Source: Pelagovum pacificum (lineage in GTDB: Bacteria; Pseudomonadota; Alphaproteobacteria; Rhodobacterales; Rhodobacteraceae). From it: 64,000 nt of DNA. The translations under genes and the position numbers were made by a program. Under the pieces are notes generated by a model, which ran no database searches, was not told where the DNA came from, and saw nothing but the letters and a program-made list of their open reading frames with translations. Positions within the stretch are counted from its first letter, which is position 1. Each line of letters starts with the position of its first letter. The DNA is taken from NCBI RefSeq assembly GCF_016134045.1, contig NZ_CP065915.1:1488001-1552000 (forward strand), read 5' to 3'. Shown piece by piece: positions 23,695-29,657 of this stretch.

Positions 23695-24258
23695 TCAGGT
23701 GGCGCCGCGGCTCAACGCGGCGACGCCGGTGCGGGCCACCTCGTTCAGGCCGAGCGGGCGCATCAGCTCCGCGAAGGCGTCGATCTTCTCCGGCGTGCCG
23801 GTGATCTCGAAGACAAAGCTTTCGAGCGTGCTGTCCACCACGTTGGCGCGGAAGATGTCGGCCAGACGCAGCGCTTCGACCCGCGCGTCGCCCTTGCCGG
23901 CGACCTTGAAGAGCGCCAGTTCGCGTTCGACCGCGCGGCCTTCGACGGTCAGGTCCTGCACTTCGTGAACCGGGACGATCCGTCCGAGCTGCGCCTTGAT
24001 CTGTTCGATCACCTGCGGCGTGCCGGTGGTGACGATGGTGATCCGCGACAGGTGCCCGGTATGATCCACCTCCGCCACGGTGAGGCTTTCGATATTGTAG
24101 CCCCGGCCCGAGAACAGGCCGATCACGCGGGCCAGAACGCCCGGTTCGTTCTCCACCAGCACCGCGAGCGTGTGCTTCTCCTGCACGTCCGAGAAGGTCG
24201 GCCGGAGATTGTAGGCGGAGTGGCTGGTGGAGCCTTGCTGGATGTTGAGCGGTGACAT
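23695..24258 (-). CDS. ilvH: Acetolactate synthase small (regulatory) subunit
   Basis: 187-residue regulatory subunit that raises the activity of the IlvB catalytic subunit and makes it sensitive to valine. The N-terminal ACT domain is plain (HTLAVLVENEPGVLARVIGL, then FSGRGYNIESLTV) and is followed by the C-terminal ALS_ss domain (ELALFKVAGKG). It is the last gene of a unit ilvB-parD-parE-ilvH; only 3 bp separate it from the toxin stop. Confidence 0.95.
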   Translation of the reverse strand: MSPLNIQQGSTSHSAYNLRPTFSDVQEKHTLAVLVENEPGVLARVIGLFSGRGYNIESLTVAEVDHTGHLSRITIVTTGTPQVIEQIKAQLGRIVPVHEVQDLTVEGRAVERELALFKVAGKGDARVEALRLADIFRANVVDSTLESFVFEITGTPEKIDAFAELMRPLGLNEVARTGVAALSRGAT

Positions 24259-24261
24259 GGG

Positions 24262-24588
24262 TCAGGCCTCGTCAGGTTGGGGCGACCAGGCGGCCAGATC
24301 GCGCCGCCGGTGCAGGATGTCGATGATGTCAATGCGAAGAGTCAGGCGCTTGAAGACCAGAAGGTGCTGACCTGCGATGACAGTGTCATAGTCCGCGTGC
24401 CGGTTCAGGCCGGTTATCGCAGTCAGGTTCCTGACGTGGACACGGCTTTCGGCCAGCGCGGTTATTCTCTCGTTCAGCATGTCTTCGTAGGCGTGTGCCT
24501 GCTCCGTTCCGAATGTGTCCGTGGTCCAGTTCGCTATCTCGGTCAGTCTGCGTGCGGCTGCCGGAGCGAAGCTGATCTCAAGTGCCAT
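24262..24588 (-). CDS. RelE/ParE family toxin
   Basis: 108-residue predicted type II toxin. ParE/RelE-fold features are seen: ISFAPAAARRLTEIANWTTD at the start, a central AITGLNRHADYDTV, and LLVFKRLTLRIDIIDILHRRRD at the end, the usual basic C-terminal strand. ATG 24588 overlaps the antitoxin end by 11 bp, typical of coupled toxin/antitoxin genes. ParE proteins usually inhibit gyrase, RelE proteins cut mRNA; which applies here is unknown. It sits inside the ilv operon. Confidence 0.85.
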   Translation of the reverse strand: MALEISFAPAAARRLTEIANWTTDTFGTEQAHAYEDMLNERITALAESRVHVRNLTAITGLNRHADYDTVIAGQHLLVFKRLTLRIDIIDILHRRRDLAAWSPQPDEA

Positions 24589-24862
24589 TGCCGCCCGTCT
24601 TGTCCTCGTACTTTGCCCGCGCCTCTGCAAAGGCGCGTCGGATCGTTACTTCGGCCGGTTCATCCAACGCGCCATGCTTTTCGTAGTCGGCGATGACGTC
24701 GTCGATGCGATCGGCAAGCCGCGCCATCCGAGCCTCATCCTCTTCCAGCATCCGCAGCCCCGCCCGCATCGCTTCGGAGGCGTTCTGGTAGCGGCCGGAT
24801 GCGACGAGCCGGTCGAGAAGCTCGGACTGGTGATCGGTCAGCACGACGTTGCGGGTGGGCAT
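24578..24862 (-). CDS. ParD-type ribbon-helix-helix antitoxin
   Basis: 94-residue antitoxin. The N-terminal ribbon-helix-helix reads MPTRNVVLTDHQSELLDRLV, then SGRYQNASEAMRAGLRMLEE, the classic ParD/CC2985-type sequence; the C-terminal half would wrap the toxin. It is transcribed before the toxin, with overlapping genes. It starts 58 bp after the ilvB stop. A short AT-rich palindrome (TTGGCAGTATATGCCAA at about 24888-24904) lies just upstream and may be its own operator, allowing expression apart from ilvB. Confidence 0.88.
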   Translation of the reverse strand: MPTRNVVLTDHQSELLDRLVASGRYQNASEAMRAGLRMLEEDEARMARLADRIDDVIADYEKHGALDEPAEVTIRRAFAEARAKYEDKTGGNGT

Positions 24863-24920: not shown

Positions 24921-26675
24921 TCAGACCAGCACGGAGCCCTTGGCGTCGATGACGCCCTGGGTCTCTGCGTCGCCCATCAGCATCTCGTTGTGGGCCTTGC
25001 CCGACGGGATCATGGGGAAGCAGTTCTCGTGCTTCTCGACGAGGCAGTCGAAGATCACCGGACCATCGTGGTTCAGCATCTCCATGATCGCGTCGTCGAG
25101 GTCGGCGGGGTCGGAGCAGACGATGCCCTTCGCGCCGAAGGCCTCGGCCAGCTTCACGAAATCGGGCAGGGCCTCGGACCAGCTTTGCGAGTAGCGCTCG
25201 CCATGCAGCAATTCCTGCCACTGGCGGACCATGCCGAGCCGCTCGTTGTTCAGGATGAACTGCTTGACCGGCAGGCGGTACTGAACCGCGGTGCCCATCT
25301 CCTGCATGTTCATCAGCCACGAGGCCTCGCCCGCGACGTTGATGACCAGCGCATCGGGGTGCGCCAGCTGAACGCCGATCGAGGCGGGGTGACCGTAGCC
25401 CATGGTGCCGAGCCCGCCGGAGGTCATCCAGCGGTTCGGCGCCTCGAAGCCGAGGAACTGCGCGGCCCACATCTGGTGCTGACCGACTTCGGTCGTGATG
25501 TAGCGGTCGTAGTCCTTGGTCAGTGCCTCGAGCCGCTCCAGTGCGTACTGCGGCTTGATCGAGGTTTTGCTGCGTTTGTAGGACAGGCAGTTCACCTTCC
25601 GCCATTGCTCGATCTGGTGCCACCAGAGCGACAGCCCCTCGCGGTCGGTCTTGCGACCGCGCGACTTCCAGACCTTGAGGATGTCCTCGAGCACGTGGCC
25701 GACATCGCCGATGATCGGCAGCTCGACATGGATCACCTTGTTGATCGACGAAGGGTCGATATCGATATGCGCCTTGACCGAGCCGGGCGAGAAAGCGTCG
25801 ATCCTCCCGGTGATCCGGTCGTCGAAGCGGGCGCCGACGTTGATCATCAGGTCGCAGTCATGCATCGCCATGTTGGCCTCGTAGAGACCGTGCATCCCGA
25901 GCATCCCCAGCCATTTGTCGCCCGACGCCGGGTAGGCGCCCAGCCCCATCAGCGAGGAGGTGATCGGAAAGCCGGTCGCCTCGACCAGTTCGCGCAGCAG
26001 CTGGCTGGCCGCCGGGCCGGAGTTGATGACGCCGCCGCCGGTATAGAAGACGGGACGCTTCGCCGTCTCCATCGCCTCGACCAGCGCCGTGATGACCGCC
26101 ATGTCGCCTTTCAGCTGCGGGGCATAGTGGCTCTTCGGGCCTTTCGTCGGCTCCTTGTAGGTGCCGTCGGCGAACTGGACGTCCTTGGGAACGTCGATCA
26201 GCACCGGGCCGGGACGGCCCGAGGTCGCGACGTGGAACGCCTCGTGGATCGTTTCCGACAGGCGGTCGGGGTCCTTCACCAGCCAGTTGTGCTTGGTGCA
26301 GGGGCGGGTGATGCCGACGGTGTCGGCCTCCTGGAACGCGTCCGAGCCGATCGCGAAGGTCGGGACCTGACCCGAGAGCACGATGATCGGGATGCTGTCC
26401 ATCAGCGCGTCCGTCAGGCCGGTAACCGCGTTGGTCGCGCCGGGGCCGGAGGTCACGATGGCGACGCCGGGTTTGCCGGTCGATCGGGCGTAACCTTCCG
26501 CTGCGTGAACCGCGCCCTGTTCGTGGCGGACCAGGATGTGGCGGATGTCGTTCTGCTGGAAGATCTCGTCATAGATCGGAAGAACGGCACCGCCGGGATA
26601 TCCGAATACCGTGTCCACACCCTGATCCCGCAGGGCCTGAACCACCATTTTCGCTCCGGTCATCTGACGTGTCAT
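24921..26675 (-). CDS. ilvB: Acetolactate synthase large (catalytic) subunit
   Basis: 584-residue ThDP enzyme, first common step of Val/Leu/Ile synthesis. The N-terminal ThDP domain has FGYPGGAVLPIYD and the catalytic Glu in RHEQGAVHAAEGYAR; the middle FAD domain and the C-terminal ThDP-binding domain (WMTSGGLGTMGYG) are complete. The metal motif, usually GDGS or GDAS, reads GEAS (VAGEASWLMNMQEMGTA). ATG 26675 follows GGAGAG; the 19 codons above it read through leader sequence. A leader-peptide attenuator lies upstream. Confidence 0.95.
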   Translation of the reverse strand: MTRQMTGAKMVVQALRDQGVDTVFGYPGGAVLPIYDEIFQQNDIRHILVRHEQGAVHAAEGYARSTGKPGVAIVTSGPGATNAVTGLTDALMDSIPIIVLSGQVPTFAIGSDAFQEADTVGITRPCTKHNWLVKDPDRLSETIHEAFHVATSGRPGPVLIDVPKDVQFADGTYKEPTKGPKSHYAPQLKGDMAVITALVEAMETAKRPVFYTGGGVINSGPAASQLLRELVEATGFPITSSLMGLGAYPASGDKWLGMLGMHGLYEANMAMHDCDLMINVGARFDDRITGRIDAFSPGSVKAHIDIDPSSINKVIHVELPIIGDVGHVLEDILKVWKSRGRKTDREGLSLWWHQIEQWRKVNCLSYKRSKTSIKPQYALERLEALTKDYDRYITTEVGQHQMWAAQFLGFEAPNRWMTSGGLGTMGYGHPASIGVQLAHPDALVINVAGEASWLMNMQEMGTAVQYRLPVKQFILNNERLGMVRQWQELLHGERYSQSWSEALPDFVKLAEAFGAKGIVCSDPADLDDAIMEMLNHDGPVIFDCLVEKHENCFPMIPSGKAHNEMLMGDAETQGVIDAKGSVLV

Positions 26676-26712
26676 CTGTCTCTCCGTTCGCTGACGTCCG
26701 TCGTTTACGCAT

Positions 26713-26738
26713 AAAAAAACCCCCGAGGTCATCGGGGG
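26713..26738 (-). terminator. Attenuator terminator of the ilv operon
   Basis: On the minus strand a 7-bp perfect stem (CCCCCGA, loop TGACC, TCGGGGG) is followed by seven T. It lies 28 bp downstream of the leader peptide stop and 38 bp before ilvB, so it would stop transcription before the structural genes. A competing 10-bp pairing (26773-26782 with 26737-26746) would use the first bases of its stem. Confidence 0.88.
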
Positions 26739-26765
26739 CGCATGGGGAACCGTTATGGTCTGCCG

Positions 26766-26813
26766 TTACCGGCCCATGCGCCACGTTCCTACAAGTACGA
26801 GAATGCTGTTCAT
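26766..26813 (-). CDS. ilv operon leader peptide (attenuator peptide)
   Basis: 15-residue frame MNSILVLVGTWRMGR with five consecutive branched-chain codons (Ile-Leu-Val-Leu-Val). GAGG lies six bases before the ATG at 26813; an in-frame ATG at 26825 would give 19 residues but has no ribosome site. The codons right after the Val (TGG CGC ATG GG) form the 5' arm of a 10-bp antiterminator. Ribosome stalling at Ile/Leu/Val codons would favour the antiterminator and read-through into ilvB. The frame is too short for ordinary gene calling. Confidence 0.85.
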   Translation of the reverse strand: MNSILVLVGTWRMGR

Positions 26814-26837
26814 CGGAAGCCTCATGCGTGTTCGCGC

Positions 26838-26866
26838 TATATGCACCCCGACTCGGACAGGGTCAA
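26838..26866 (-). promoter_or_regulatory. Sigma-70-type promoter of the ilv leader
   Basis: TTGACC (26861-26866) and CATATA (26838-26843) with 17 bases between on the minus strand. The start of transcription would fall near 26831, about 18 bases before the leader peptide ATG. Confidence 0.65.
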
Positions 26867-27485: not shown

Positions 27486-27707
27486 CCTGACGCCGGTTGG
27501 ATAGGCAGCTTGGCCCCGAAAATTCCCCCTTAGATTGTATTTGGTTGGATCGCTGGAAACAATGATGGCCGGGACACGCATTCGTCCCAGCCGCTGGCGA
27601 TTTTTCCCAACTTTCTTTTTCAAATTGCCGCAATTCCGCCAATATCCCGCCAGTGGGAGATGCCGCGCCGCGTGGCATCCAGTTCGGAATCCTTTGGGGG
27701 GGATGCC

Positions 27708-29657
27708 ATGCCAGACGCCATTCAGGCCTTTATCGACCTGTTGCTTTCGGGAAATCCCGATGCGGCAGCGACATCCACCGAGCTTGCCGACGGCAGCTAT
27801 CTCGTCACCTGGTTCGGTCCGGCAAGCGAGGGCAGCGCCCCCGTGCTCGGCCAGCTGTTCACCGAAGCCGGTGACACCCTCGGCGAAGAGATCGAGATCG
27901 CCGAGTCCGCCGTCTTGACCAGCGGCATCGACGCCGCCGCCGTGGGCGAAGGTGCGACGGTATTCTACGAAGGCCCCGAAGGTGAGATGGCCGCGATGGT
28001 CGACCTCCCGGAGGAGGCGACCGATGTCCCTTTAGACGGGGGCGTGGCGGTCACGGCTGACGAGCCGGCCGCCGAGCCTCTGATCTACACCGGTGTCCTG
28101 CAGCGCGAGACGGTCGAGGGCACCGAGGGTGACGACACATTCGAGACCTACGGCGGCGACGACACGATCTACGCTGGCGACGGCAACGACACGATCGACT
28201 CCGGCAAGGACGGCGACCACGTCTATGGCGGCGACGGCGACGATTCCATCAACGGCAGCTTCGGCAACGACTTCATCTACGGCGGCGACGGCAACGACCT
28301 GATCGAAGGCAGCTGGGGCAACGAGTTCATCAGCGGCGGCGCCGGCGACGATGAGATCTACGGCGGCGAGAACAAGGACACGATCTACGGCGGCGAGGGC
28401 AACGACGCGCTCTACGGCGGCGACAACAATGACACGATCTGGGGCCGCGACGGCGACGACACCATCTACGGCGATGCCGGCAACGACCTGCTGCGCGGGT
28501 TCGACGGCGACGACACCATCCTCGGTGGCGACCGGGACGACGACATCCGCGGCGGCTCGGGCAACGACTCCCTGCACGGCAACGCGGGCGACGACAATGT
28601 TCGCGGCAACGGCGGTGACGATACGGTTCGCGGTGGCGACGGCGACGATGAAGTGCGCGGCGGTGCGGGCAACGACTTCGTCATCGGCGGCGACGGCAAC
28701 GACCTCGTGATCGGCAATGCCGGCAACGACACTGTCGACGGCGCGCTGGGCGACGACCGGGTCCACGGCGGCTTCGGCGACGACGAGCTGCGCGGCGGCG
28801 GCGGGGACGACACCGTCTGGGGCGGTGGCGGCGACGACATCGCGACCGGCGGCGACGGCAACGACGTCATCTACGGCGGCGAAGGCGACGACATCATCGA
28901 AGCCTCCGGCAACGTGATCGACATCCCGCTGCCCGGCGGAGGTTTCCAGTCCCTGTCCGGCACGCCGAACCGTGGCTACGACGGCCTCTTCGAAGCGGAC
29001 CAGAACCCCGCCGACGACGAGGACTCGGTGCGTGGCGGTGAAGGCAACGACATCATCACCACGGGCGACGACAACGACACCGTCCGGGGCGGCGAGGGCG
29101 ACGACTTCATCGACGGCGGCTTCGACGACGACAGCCTCGCGGGGAACTGCGGCGACGACACGATCATCGGCGGCGAAGGCTCCGACCTGATCCGGGGCGG
29201 TCAGGGCGACGACCTGATCTACGGCGGCCTCGACCCGCGCTTCCCGGACGAGCTGAACGTCGACGATGCCTCTGACCTCGTGCTCGATAACGGCGATGAC
29301 GTGATCTACGGCAACGAAGGCAACGACACGATCTACGGTGAGGACGACAACGACGAGATCTACGGCGGCGAAGGCGACGACTGGATCAACGGCGGCAAAG
29401 ACGACGACATGCTGACCGGTGACGCCGGCAACGACATCTTCTCCTTTGACGAGGACGGCGCCACCGACACGGTCGCCGACTTCACCAAGGGCGAGGACAA
29501 GATCGAGATTGCCGGTGTCGAGGATGTCGACGAGTTCGCCGACCTGTTCCTCAGCCAGGACGACAGCACGGCCGTGATCGAGGCGGGCGCGCTGCAGATC
29601 AGGCTCGAAGGGGTCGACTCCGCCGATCTGGACGAGACGGACTTCATGTTCATCTGA
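27708..29657 (+). CDS. RTX (hemolysin-type) calcium-binding protein, probable type I secretion substrate
   Basis: 649-residue acidic extracellular protein. Residues 1-130 include one LADGSYLVTWFGPASEG repeat, a type seen at the start of many RTX adhesin-like proteins. From about 145 to 400 there are roughly 27 consecutive GGxGxDxUx nonapeptides forming a calcium beta-roll; after a 38-residue insert about a dozen more follow. The C-terminal 60 residues (DTVADFTKGEDKIEIAG to DFMFI) are the usual uncleaved secretion signal. ATG 27708 follows GGGGGGGA. No ABC/membrane-fusion secretion genes lie nearby, so export must rely on genes elsewhere. A strong terminator follows. Its role is unknown. Confidence 0.9.
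   Translation: MPDAIQAFIDLLLSGNPDAAATSTELADGSYLVTWFGPASEGSAPVLGQLFTEAGDTLGEEIEIAESAVLTSGIDAAAVGEGATVFYEGPEGEMAAMVDLPEEATDVPLDGGVAVTADEPAAEPLIYTGVLQRETVEGTEGDDTFETYGGDDTIYAGDGNDTIDSGKDGDHVYGGDGDDSINGSFGNDFIYGGDGNDLIEGSWGNEFISGGAGDDEIYGGENKDTIYGGEGNDALYGGDNNDTIWGRDGDDTIYGDAGNDLLRGFDGDDTILGGDRDDDIRGGSGNDSLHGNAGDDNVRGNGGDDTVRGGDGDDEVRGGAGNDFVIGGDGNDLVIGNAGNDTVDGALGDDRVHGGFGDDELRGGGGDDTVWGGGGDDIATGGDGNDVIYGGEGDDIIEASGNVIDIPLPGGGFQSLSGTPNRGYDGLFEADQNPADDEDSVRGGEGNDIITTGDDNDTVRGGEGDDFIDGGFDDDSLAGNCGDDTIIGGEGSDLIRGGQGDDLIYGGLDPRFPDELNVDDASDLVLDNGDDVIYGNEGNDTIYGEDDNDEIYGGEGDDWINGGKDDDMLTGDAGNDIFSFDEDGATDTVADFTKGEDKIEIAGVEDVDEFADLFLSQDDSTAVIEAGALQIRLEGVDSADLDETDFMFI

Follow-up and report, generated by a model that had tools for sequence, protein, structure and literature searches.

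The ilvB gene of Pelagovum pacificum is probably preceded by a ribosome-mediated transcription attenuator that would sense the charging of isoleucine, leucine and valine tRNAs. Attenuation as such, to which the comparison with related leaders points, is very likely; a GCC triplet shared by antiterminator and terminator is put forward as the decisive step on a slight balance of probability. Such an element would be a readable switch for the central branched-chain pathway of a large bacterial family. The window, which is the whole stretch of 64,000 nucleotides of contig NZ_CP065915.1 that was analysed, contains the following features:

26866-26861 and 26843-26838, minus strand: promoter TTGACC/CATATA with a 17-base spacer (sequence)
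26823-26820, minus strand: GAGG ribosome-binding site (sequence)
26813 (ATG) to 26768-26766 (stop codon TAA), minus strand: leader frame MNSILVLVGTWRMGR (sequence)
26804-26790, minus strand: five consecutive control codons ATT CTC GTA CTT GTA (codon conservation in leaders)
26782-26773, minus strand: 5' arm of the antiterminator stem P1, GGCGCATGGG, within the leader frame (alignment, covariation)
26772-26763, minus strand: hairpin P2, CCG-GTAA-CGG, with the stop codon in a GNRA-type loop (hairpin counts, covariation)
26760-26748, minus strand: hairpin P3, GACC/GGTT, weakly conserved (predicted fold)
26746-26737, minus strand: 3' arm of P1, CCCATGCGCC (alignment, covariation)
26739-26737, minus strand: GCC common to P1 and the terminator stem (sequence; alternative folds within 1.4 kcal/mol)
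26739-26719 (stem) and 26719-26713 (T7), minus strand: intrinsic terminator GCCCCCGA-TGACC-TCGGGGGT followed by seven T (sequence, terminator scan, alignment)
24921-26675, minus strand: ilvB, acetolactate synthase large subunit, the gene thought to be controlled (three TPP-enzyme Pfam domains; start placed by alignment to relatives)
23695-24258, minus strand: ilvN, acetolactate synthase small subunit, downstream of ilvB (Pfam ALS_ss_C and ACT)

The promoter, GAGG site, leader frame, P1 arms and terminator were found where the original prediction had placed them when the minus strand was reread; Ile-Leu-Val-Leu-Val in the 15-codon leader corresponds to the five control codons, and the terminator with seven T was also returned by the terminator scan. 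The two P1 arms are complementary over ten bases each, and, counted from the A of the leader, P1 occupies positions 32-77 and the terminator 75-95. The leader promoter was absent from the output of a consensus promoter scan of the window. The product of ilvB is the first common enzyme of the branched-chain amino acid pathway, which is in favour of the attenuator explanation. A toxin-antitoxin pair of the parD/parE type (24262-24862, minus strand; Pfam PF03693 and PF05016) is located between ilvB and ilvN and, given this placement, may be transcribed from the attenuated promoter.

The comparison is based on 173 ilvB upstream regions, namely 113 from 33 loci and 80 named genome contigs (including Ruegeria, Roseovarius and Leisingera; these two sets may contain the same genome twice) and 60 further stretches from the lower-identity end of the family. 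A filter requiring the core within five or fewer mismatches and a T-run was passed by 147 regions, and 145 leaders were left without L130 and L135; codon counts were made on 144, as L144 has no start codon under the rule used. Alignment A1 comprises 104 leaders, the 107 dereplicated ones minus L043, L130 and L135, which were removed by hand. Among the 28 regions outside the 145-leader set, 12 match the model based on A1 at E 0.003 or better, while in eight (L067, L115, L116, L117, L121, L126, L134 and L140) inspection by eye revealed no attenuator. By eye, the layout is kept with another P1 sequence in family members L091, L095, L118, L122, L125, L127, L132, L133, L145 and L149.

A lack of conserved branched-chain codons or pairing in relatives had been named at the outset as evidence that would speak against the element; inspection of the relatives revealed conserved codons, frame, P1, stop-codon hairpin and terminator. 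Codons -8 to -4 specify Ile, Leu or Val in 96, 100, 94, 91 and 90% of 144 leaders, respectively. Across 145 leaders, the in-frame total at these five positions is 684/725 (0.943), compared with 92/725 (0.127) and 6/725 (0.008) in the other two frames. In 130 of 144 leaders the start codon is placed 11 codons ahead of the arginine codon of P1, and any of six SD-like 4-mers precedes it in 133 of 144 (a raw count). GTA makes up 216 of the 379 Val codons in leaders versus 151 of 3343 in 74 ilvB genes, and CTA makes up 75 of 199 Leu codons versus 54 of 3442, these 74 genes, not whole genomes, serving as background; in the 104 dereplicated leaders the shares are 144/260 and 41/154. This enrichment agrees with the theory that control codons are selected for sensitivity (PMC1183508, in excerpt). 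In 144 of the 145 leaders TTGAC precedes P1 by 36-120 bases, and the -10 region is weak, the best hexamer agreeing with TATAAT at three of six positions in 112 leaders, at four in 31 and at two in one. As expected of an amino-acid attenuator, the leader frame is translatable and rich in codons for the products of the pathway.

In the 104 aligned sequences, P1 and P2 are paired in 94.2% of cells and 7 of the 13 pairs have a two-sided change somewhere; none of 500 column shuffles reaches these pairing measures, and slid versions reach at most four such pairs. Two-sided changes occur in 13 of 18 pairs when 33 more diverse leaders, of synthase and efflux genes, are taken in an alignment fitted to the model, and again no shuffle out of 500 attains the pairing measures; the covariation counts follow sequences, not evolutionary events. 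In one leader (L052) a G-C pair of P1 is replaced by A-U with pairing retained and the peptide becomes HMGR, which argues that the RNA rather than the peptide is what is kept there. Another (L171) deviates at the shared GCC together with both pairing partners. A local hairpin encloses the stop codon in 143 of 145 leaders, with a GTAA or GTGA loop in 134, although both counts are biased since the leaders were picked by likeness to the core. The terminator pairs are present in 103-104 of the 104 leaders at seven of eight positions, and this intrinsic terminator lies between the leader and the structural gene, as in attenuators generally. The comparison shows conservation of the leader frame, of the control codons with their bias to rare codons, of P1, P2 and the terminator, and of the spacing, and the attenuation originally proposed is supported by these conserved parts and by their compensatory changes in relatives.

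In the proposed mechanism, when amino acids are ample, the ribosome would pass the five control codons, reach the stop codon and cover the 5' arm of P1. The terminator could then form to its base, and transcription would stop about 40 bases before ilvB. During shortage, the ribosome would stall on the control codons and leave P1 free. A ribosome reaches about 10-11 bases downstream of its A site, and the last control codon begins 10-11 bases ahead of P1; thus P1 would be just free during a stall and covered when the ribosome is at the stop codon. The free P1 would form first, take the GCC at the terminator base and leave two unpaired G before the T-run, so that the weakened base would allow RNA polymerase to read through into ilvB. 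We infer the ribosome position, the order of folding and the sufficiency of losing the bottom pairs.

The stems were originally described as mutually exclusive. It holds that P1 is real and that bases are shared, but strict exclusion is rejected, since only three bases (26739-26737) are common to P1 and the terminator and the stems coexist in the predicted fold. The best fold predicted for the window leader retains both, P1 with 8 bp and the terminator with 6 bp, at -34.7 kcal/mol; with P1 held at its full 10 bp the energy is -33.3, and with the terminator held at 8 bp it is -33.8 kcal/mol, costs of 1.4 and 0.9 kcal/mol. Two partners are available to the shared bases, 26782-26780 and 26721-26719, the outermost pair being G-U. 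For the window leader, equilibrium folding gives the base next to the T-run a pairing of 1.00, which drops to 0.31 once P1 is allowed to form, a point in favour of the proposed switch. Averaged over 145 leaders, this pairing is 1.00 when P1 is covered and 0.73 when it is free, and 21% of leaders lose more than 0.3 when P1 is free. Across the 145 leaders, equilibrium folding loosens the terminator base and no more, which counts against the proposed mechanism, and the predicted exclusion is weak in most of them.

A switch of this kind has been described in Corynebacterium glutamicum, where the 'fast' attenuator of ilvBNC (ilvB-II motif) has, like the window, a 15-residue leader with Ile/Leu/Val codons and an adjacent antiterminator and terminator that overlap by GCC, before the same target gene (PMC11857589, PMC10272879, both in excerpt). 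The window contains the boundary GCC triplet that belongs to the definition of such attenuators in the available part of PMC11857589, and may work by a similar boundary switch. Because the shared boundary triplet of C. glutamicum is supported there by point mutations, base sharing is regarded, by analogy, as the likeliest switch for the window; it is not claimed as demonstrated. C. glutamicum belongs to a different phylum and was compared by description, not by DNA; its authors also describe a third, anti-antiterminator hairpin over the leader start, for which a single-sequence fold was viewed in the window. The available portions of the two papers mention no efflux-gene copies.

A credible though less probable alternative retains the same sensing but needs no shared bases: P1, as a three-way junction with P2 and P3, would block termination by bulk, because a stiff helix lying only a few bases from the terminator base would leave the terminator hairpin no room beside it in the RNA exit channel. 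The exit-channel argument follows from general knowledge of intrinsic termination. The weak exclusion at equilibrium is in favour of this alternative, as is the retention of P1 while its distance to the G+C part of the terminator ranges from three shared bases to a nine-base gap. Ten rhizobial-type loci have 7-9 bases between P1 and that G+C part; when the weak A-U pairs are counted, as in the Rfam structure, about four bases separate the stems and none is shared. Since P1 and the terminator have no common bases in these relatives, they cannot use the shared-triplet switch, which counts against that mechanism. The spacer GGTAAGCA between P1 and the terminator is conserved in the gapped leaders L236, L242, L245, L248 and L261. 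On the other hand, the three-base overlap is uniform in the Rhodobacteraceae majority, as if selected, and the C. glutamicum mutations favour base sharing (PMC11857589, in excerpt), which remains the preferred reading for the window. The natural series from three shared bases to a nine-base gap lets one ask how much overlap attenuation needs.

The ilv, leu and trp attenuators of enterobacteria likewise consist of a leader peptide, control codons and a terminator. Their antiterminator occupies a large part of the terminator stem, whereas that of the window takes only the bottom three terminator bases. There is a precedent within the class of the window, the Alphaproteobacteria: branched-chain attenuation has been described for ilvBN of Caulobacter crescentus, whose ilv leader has tandem Ile and Val codons before a terminator (PMC4117421, in excerpt, citing Tarleton 1994); this likeness is one of description, not sequence. 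According to the accessible text of PMC6123439, Vitreschak 2004 predicted candidate leaders and terminators ahead of genes of this kind in a range of Gram-negative species. The Rhodobacterales cysS leader uORFC-8-2 is a candidate ribosome-mediated attenuator from the same order, but with cysteine codons and a cysS gene, and the ilvB motif in the available part of that paper comes from Leptospira (PMC8632094). A literature search, mostly of titles and abstract openings and with few subscription journals, returned no description of the Rhodobacteraceae ilvB leader, of the Rfam family Atu_C8 as an attenuator or of an ilvB-type leader on an efflux gene, and word look-up in the accessible text of PMC3738593, PMC3927594 and PMC2965389 returned no ilv passage. 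Attenuation of this kind is already described; the literature searched yielded nothing on the conserved core, on its occurrence before a second gene or on a link to Atu_C8.

Of 292 genomes of the order, a sample that includes the model-building genomes, 263 have a match to the model built from the 104 leaders, and among the matches listed every genome with the element belongs to Rhodobacteraceae. The unmatched genomes number 29, of which at least 12, among 20 listed, belong to a single genus (g24); no leader was seen by eye in a region from this genus (L134). A missing match need not mean a missing leader, as L137, whose genome is among the unmatched, resembles a variant on visual inspection. 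A class-wide distribution of the ilv leader is rejected: a strict detector, positive in 148 of 171 regions of the family set and in 1 of 420 shuffles, was positive in 2 of 84 ilvB upstream regions of the class, and the lack of the element from most such regions counts against the attenuator explanation. A looser detector found one of 86 class regions, by eye without the core, and L273 is a possible further case among the 29 of these 86 viewed. Ten weaker model matches in the genome of P. pacificum (E 0.04 or worse) were rejected as further attenuators, the seven that were read being ordinary-looking terminators. Phage records gave no match to the element.

When applied to 289 genomes of the class, the model has matches in 20 at E 1e-3 or better: four in the family, six in other families (E 1e-18 to 2e-6) and ten weak ones (2.5e-5 to 9.5e-4) that resemble plain terminators. 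The last (L202-L211) are by eye ordinary terminators and were rejected as attenuators; the gene behind L206 presumably encodes a methionine-pathway enzyme. All six matches in other families precede an MFS gene. Four MFS proteins, from three of these six and from L212, were compared with NCBIfam, and three pass the Bcr/CflA efflux cut-off while one is 5.6 bits short. In Rhodobacteraceae genomes, a Bcr/CflA-type MFS gene likewise follows four strong second copies; two weaker second matches in family genomes (L216 and L217) were discarded as efflux leaders, the transporter not being behind them. The core is found before the same MFS gene six times in family f107 and twice in f161. In total, near-copies before Bcr/CflA-type MFS genes, partly on plasmids, were recorded in alpha- and betaproteobacteria as L196-L201, L212-L215, L236 and L242-L246, with further ones as L248-L250, L252, L253, L257, L260, L261, L377 and L378.

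Fifteen plasmid records were examined, 14 of them chosen for the transporter, and eight of these 14 have the core before it: Rhizobium (three), Burkholderia (two), Roseobacter, Phaeobacter and Leisingera, the last three being typed as conjugative. The other six contain no intact core within the stretch read. In the fifteenth record, from Sinorhizobium meliloti, the core precedes acetolactate synthase (L262). Two matches of 31 bases were found on Pseudomonas plasmids. In the class search the core is present at 7 of 18 transporter places, within the bases viewed, and the genome of P. pacificum encodes a 42%-identical transporter without the core. Val accounts for 69 of 89 Ile/Leu/Val codons in 21 rows of efflux leaders, where the frame was mostly picked for most such codons, and for 379 of 737 in 144 ilvB leaders. 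If an efflux gene is under an amino-acid switch, export would be tied to the sensing of starvation.

At curated cut-offs the window has no match in Rfam. Against RF02502 ('Rhizobiales sRNA Atu_C8') it scores 31.4 bits over the whole model, below the gathering cut-off of 50 bits; the E values of 1.3e-4 in a 351-base and 5e-5 in a 141-base stretch are low because the stretches are short, and a search of its whole genome gave no match at E 0.001. The ilvB leaders of two other genomes (G153 and G595) reach E 2e-4, and the efflux leader L225 scores 98.8 bits. The cut-off is passed on efflux leaders in 6 of 36 genomes of the order of L225, and in 1 of 289 genomes of the class sample. The RF02502 consensus line reads MIILVVGPRMG in frame, and its alignment has the P1 arms GCGCAUGGG/CCCAUGCGC after an in-frame Ile/Leu/Val run. 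The P1 core is the same as in the window in an alignment over the whole model; unlike in the window, P1 and the terminator share no bases, and the family is annotated as an sRNA, not an attenuator. From L225, L236 and the window (26703-26814) we infer that the Atu_C8 'sRNA' is the terminated leader of the same attenuator family; if so, a catalogued small RNA gains a function.

A wider reading, offered tentatively and considered rather doubtful, is that a single transferable module serves two unrelated genes, one for acetolactate synthase and one for a Bcr/CflA-type pump, in both alpha- and betaproteobacteria, conjugative plasmids included; it would block termination with no need for shared bases, and Atu_C8 would be its terminated product. 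The output part of the attenuator would be the three-way junction, gated by the ribosome, with a nearly fixed P1 and a hairpin loop that contains the stop codon; the codon run would have been retuned from Ile/Leu/Val to mostly Val, and the target of P1 may be RNA polymerase or the exit channel of the enzyme. If this were true, valine shortage would switch the pump on, for example under a pathway inhibitor.

That the short terminated RNA or its peptide acts in trans is unlikely. The element has the position, frame and codons expected of a cis attenuator and P1 differs among branches, although Rfam lists the rhizobial relative as an sRNA (the RF02502 matches) and both RNA and peptide of the S. 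meliloti trp attenuator, rnTrpL/peTrpL, act in trans (PMC7298713, PMC10117765, in excerpt). The P1 sequence is also near-invariant in the family, more conserved than pairing alone requires, which could also reflect direct binding of a protein or small molecule by the three-way junction, as in a riboswitch, with the small frame secondary. The GNRA-type loop fits such binding, as does the greater frequency of the exact 3' arm of P1, found in 22 of 33 rows versus 13 for the 5' arm (ten rows keep the 3' arm alone and one the 5' arm alone; p 0.012, the rows being related). The five in-frame control codons, the rare-codon bias, the fixed spacing and the variation of the sequence across branches make this explanation improbable. 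An ordinary terminator next to an accidental small frame is barely credible. What speaks for it is the unremarkable fold of the leader taken singly (z -1.04), so the case for an attenuator rests on comparison; against it, the frame, codons and pairing are conserved in relatives. The ribosome-mediated attenuator remains the preferred explanation of the window.

A candidate RNA polymerase pause signal, TGC|G, is present in the 3' arm of P1, with G at -10 or -11 in 103 of 143 leaders, which is suggestive only. The T-run is followed by ATGC, a candidate for an additional pairing partner, in 42 of 141 leaders. A frame in divergent orientation nearby, at 27660-29657 on the plus strand, encodes RTX calcium-binding repeats (Pfam PF00353, 16 stretches).
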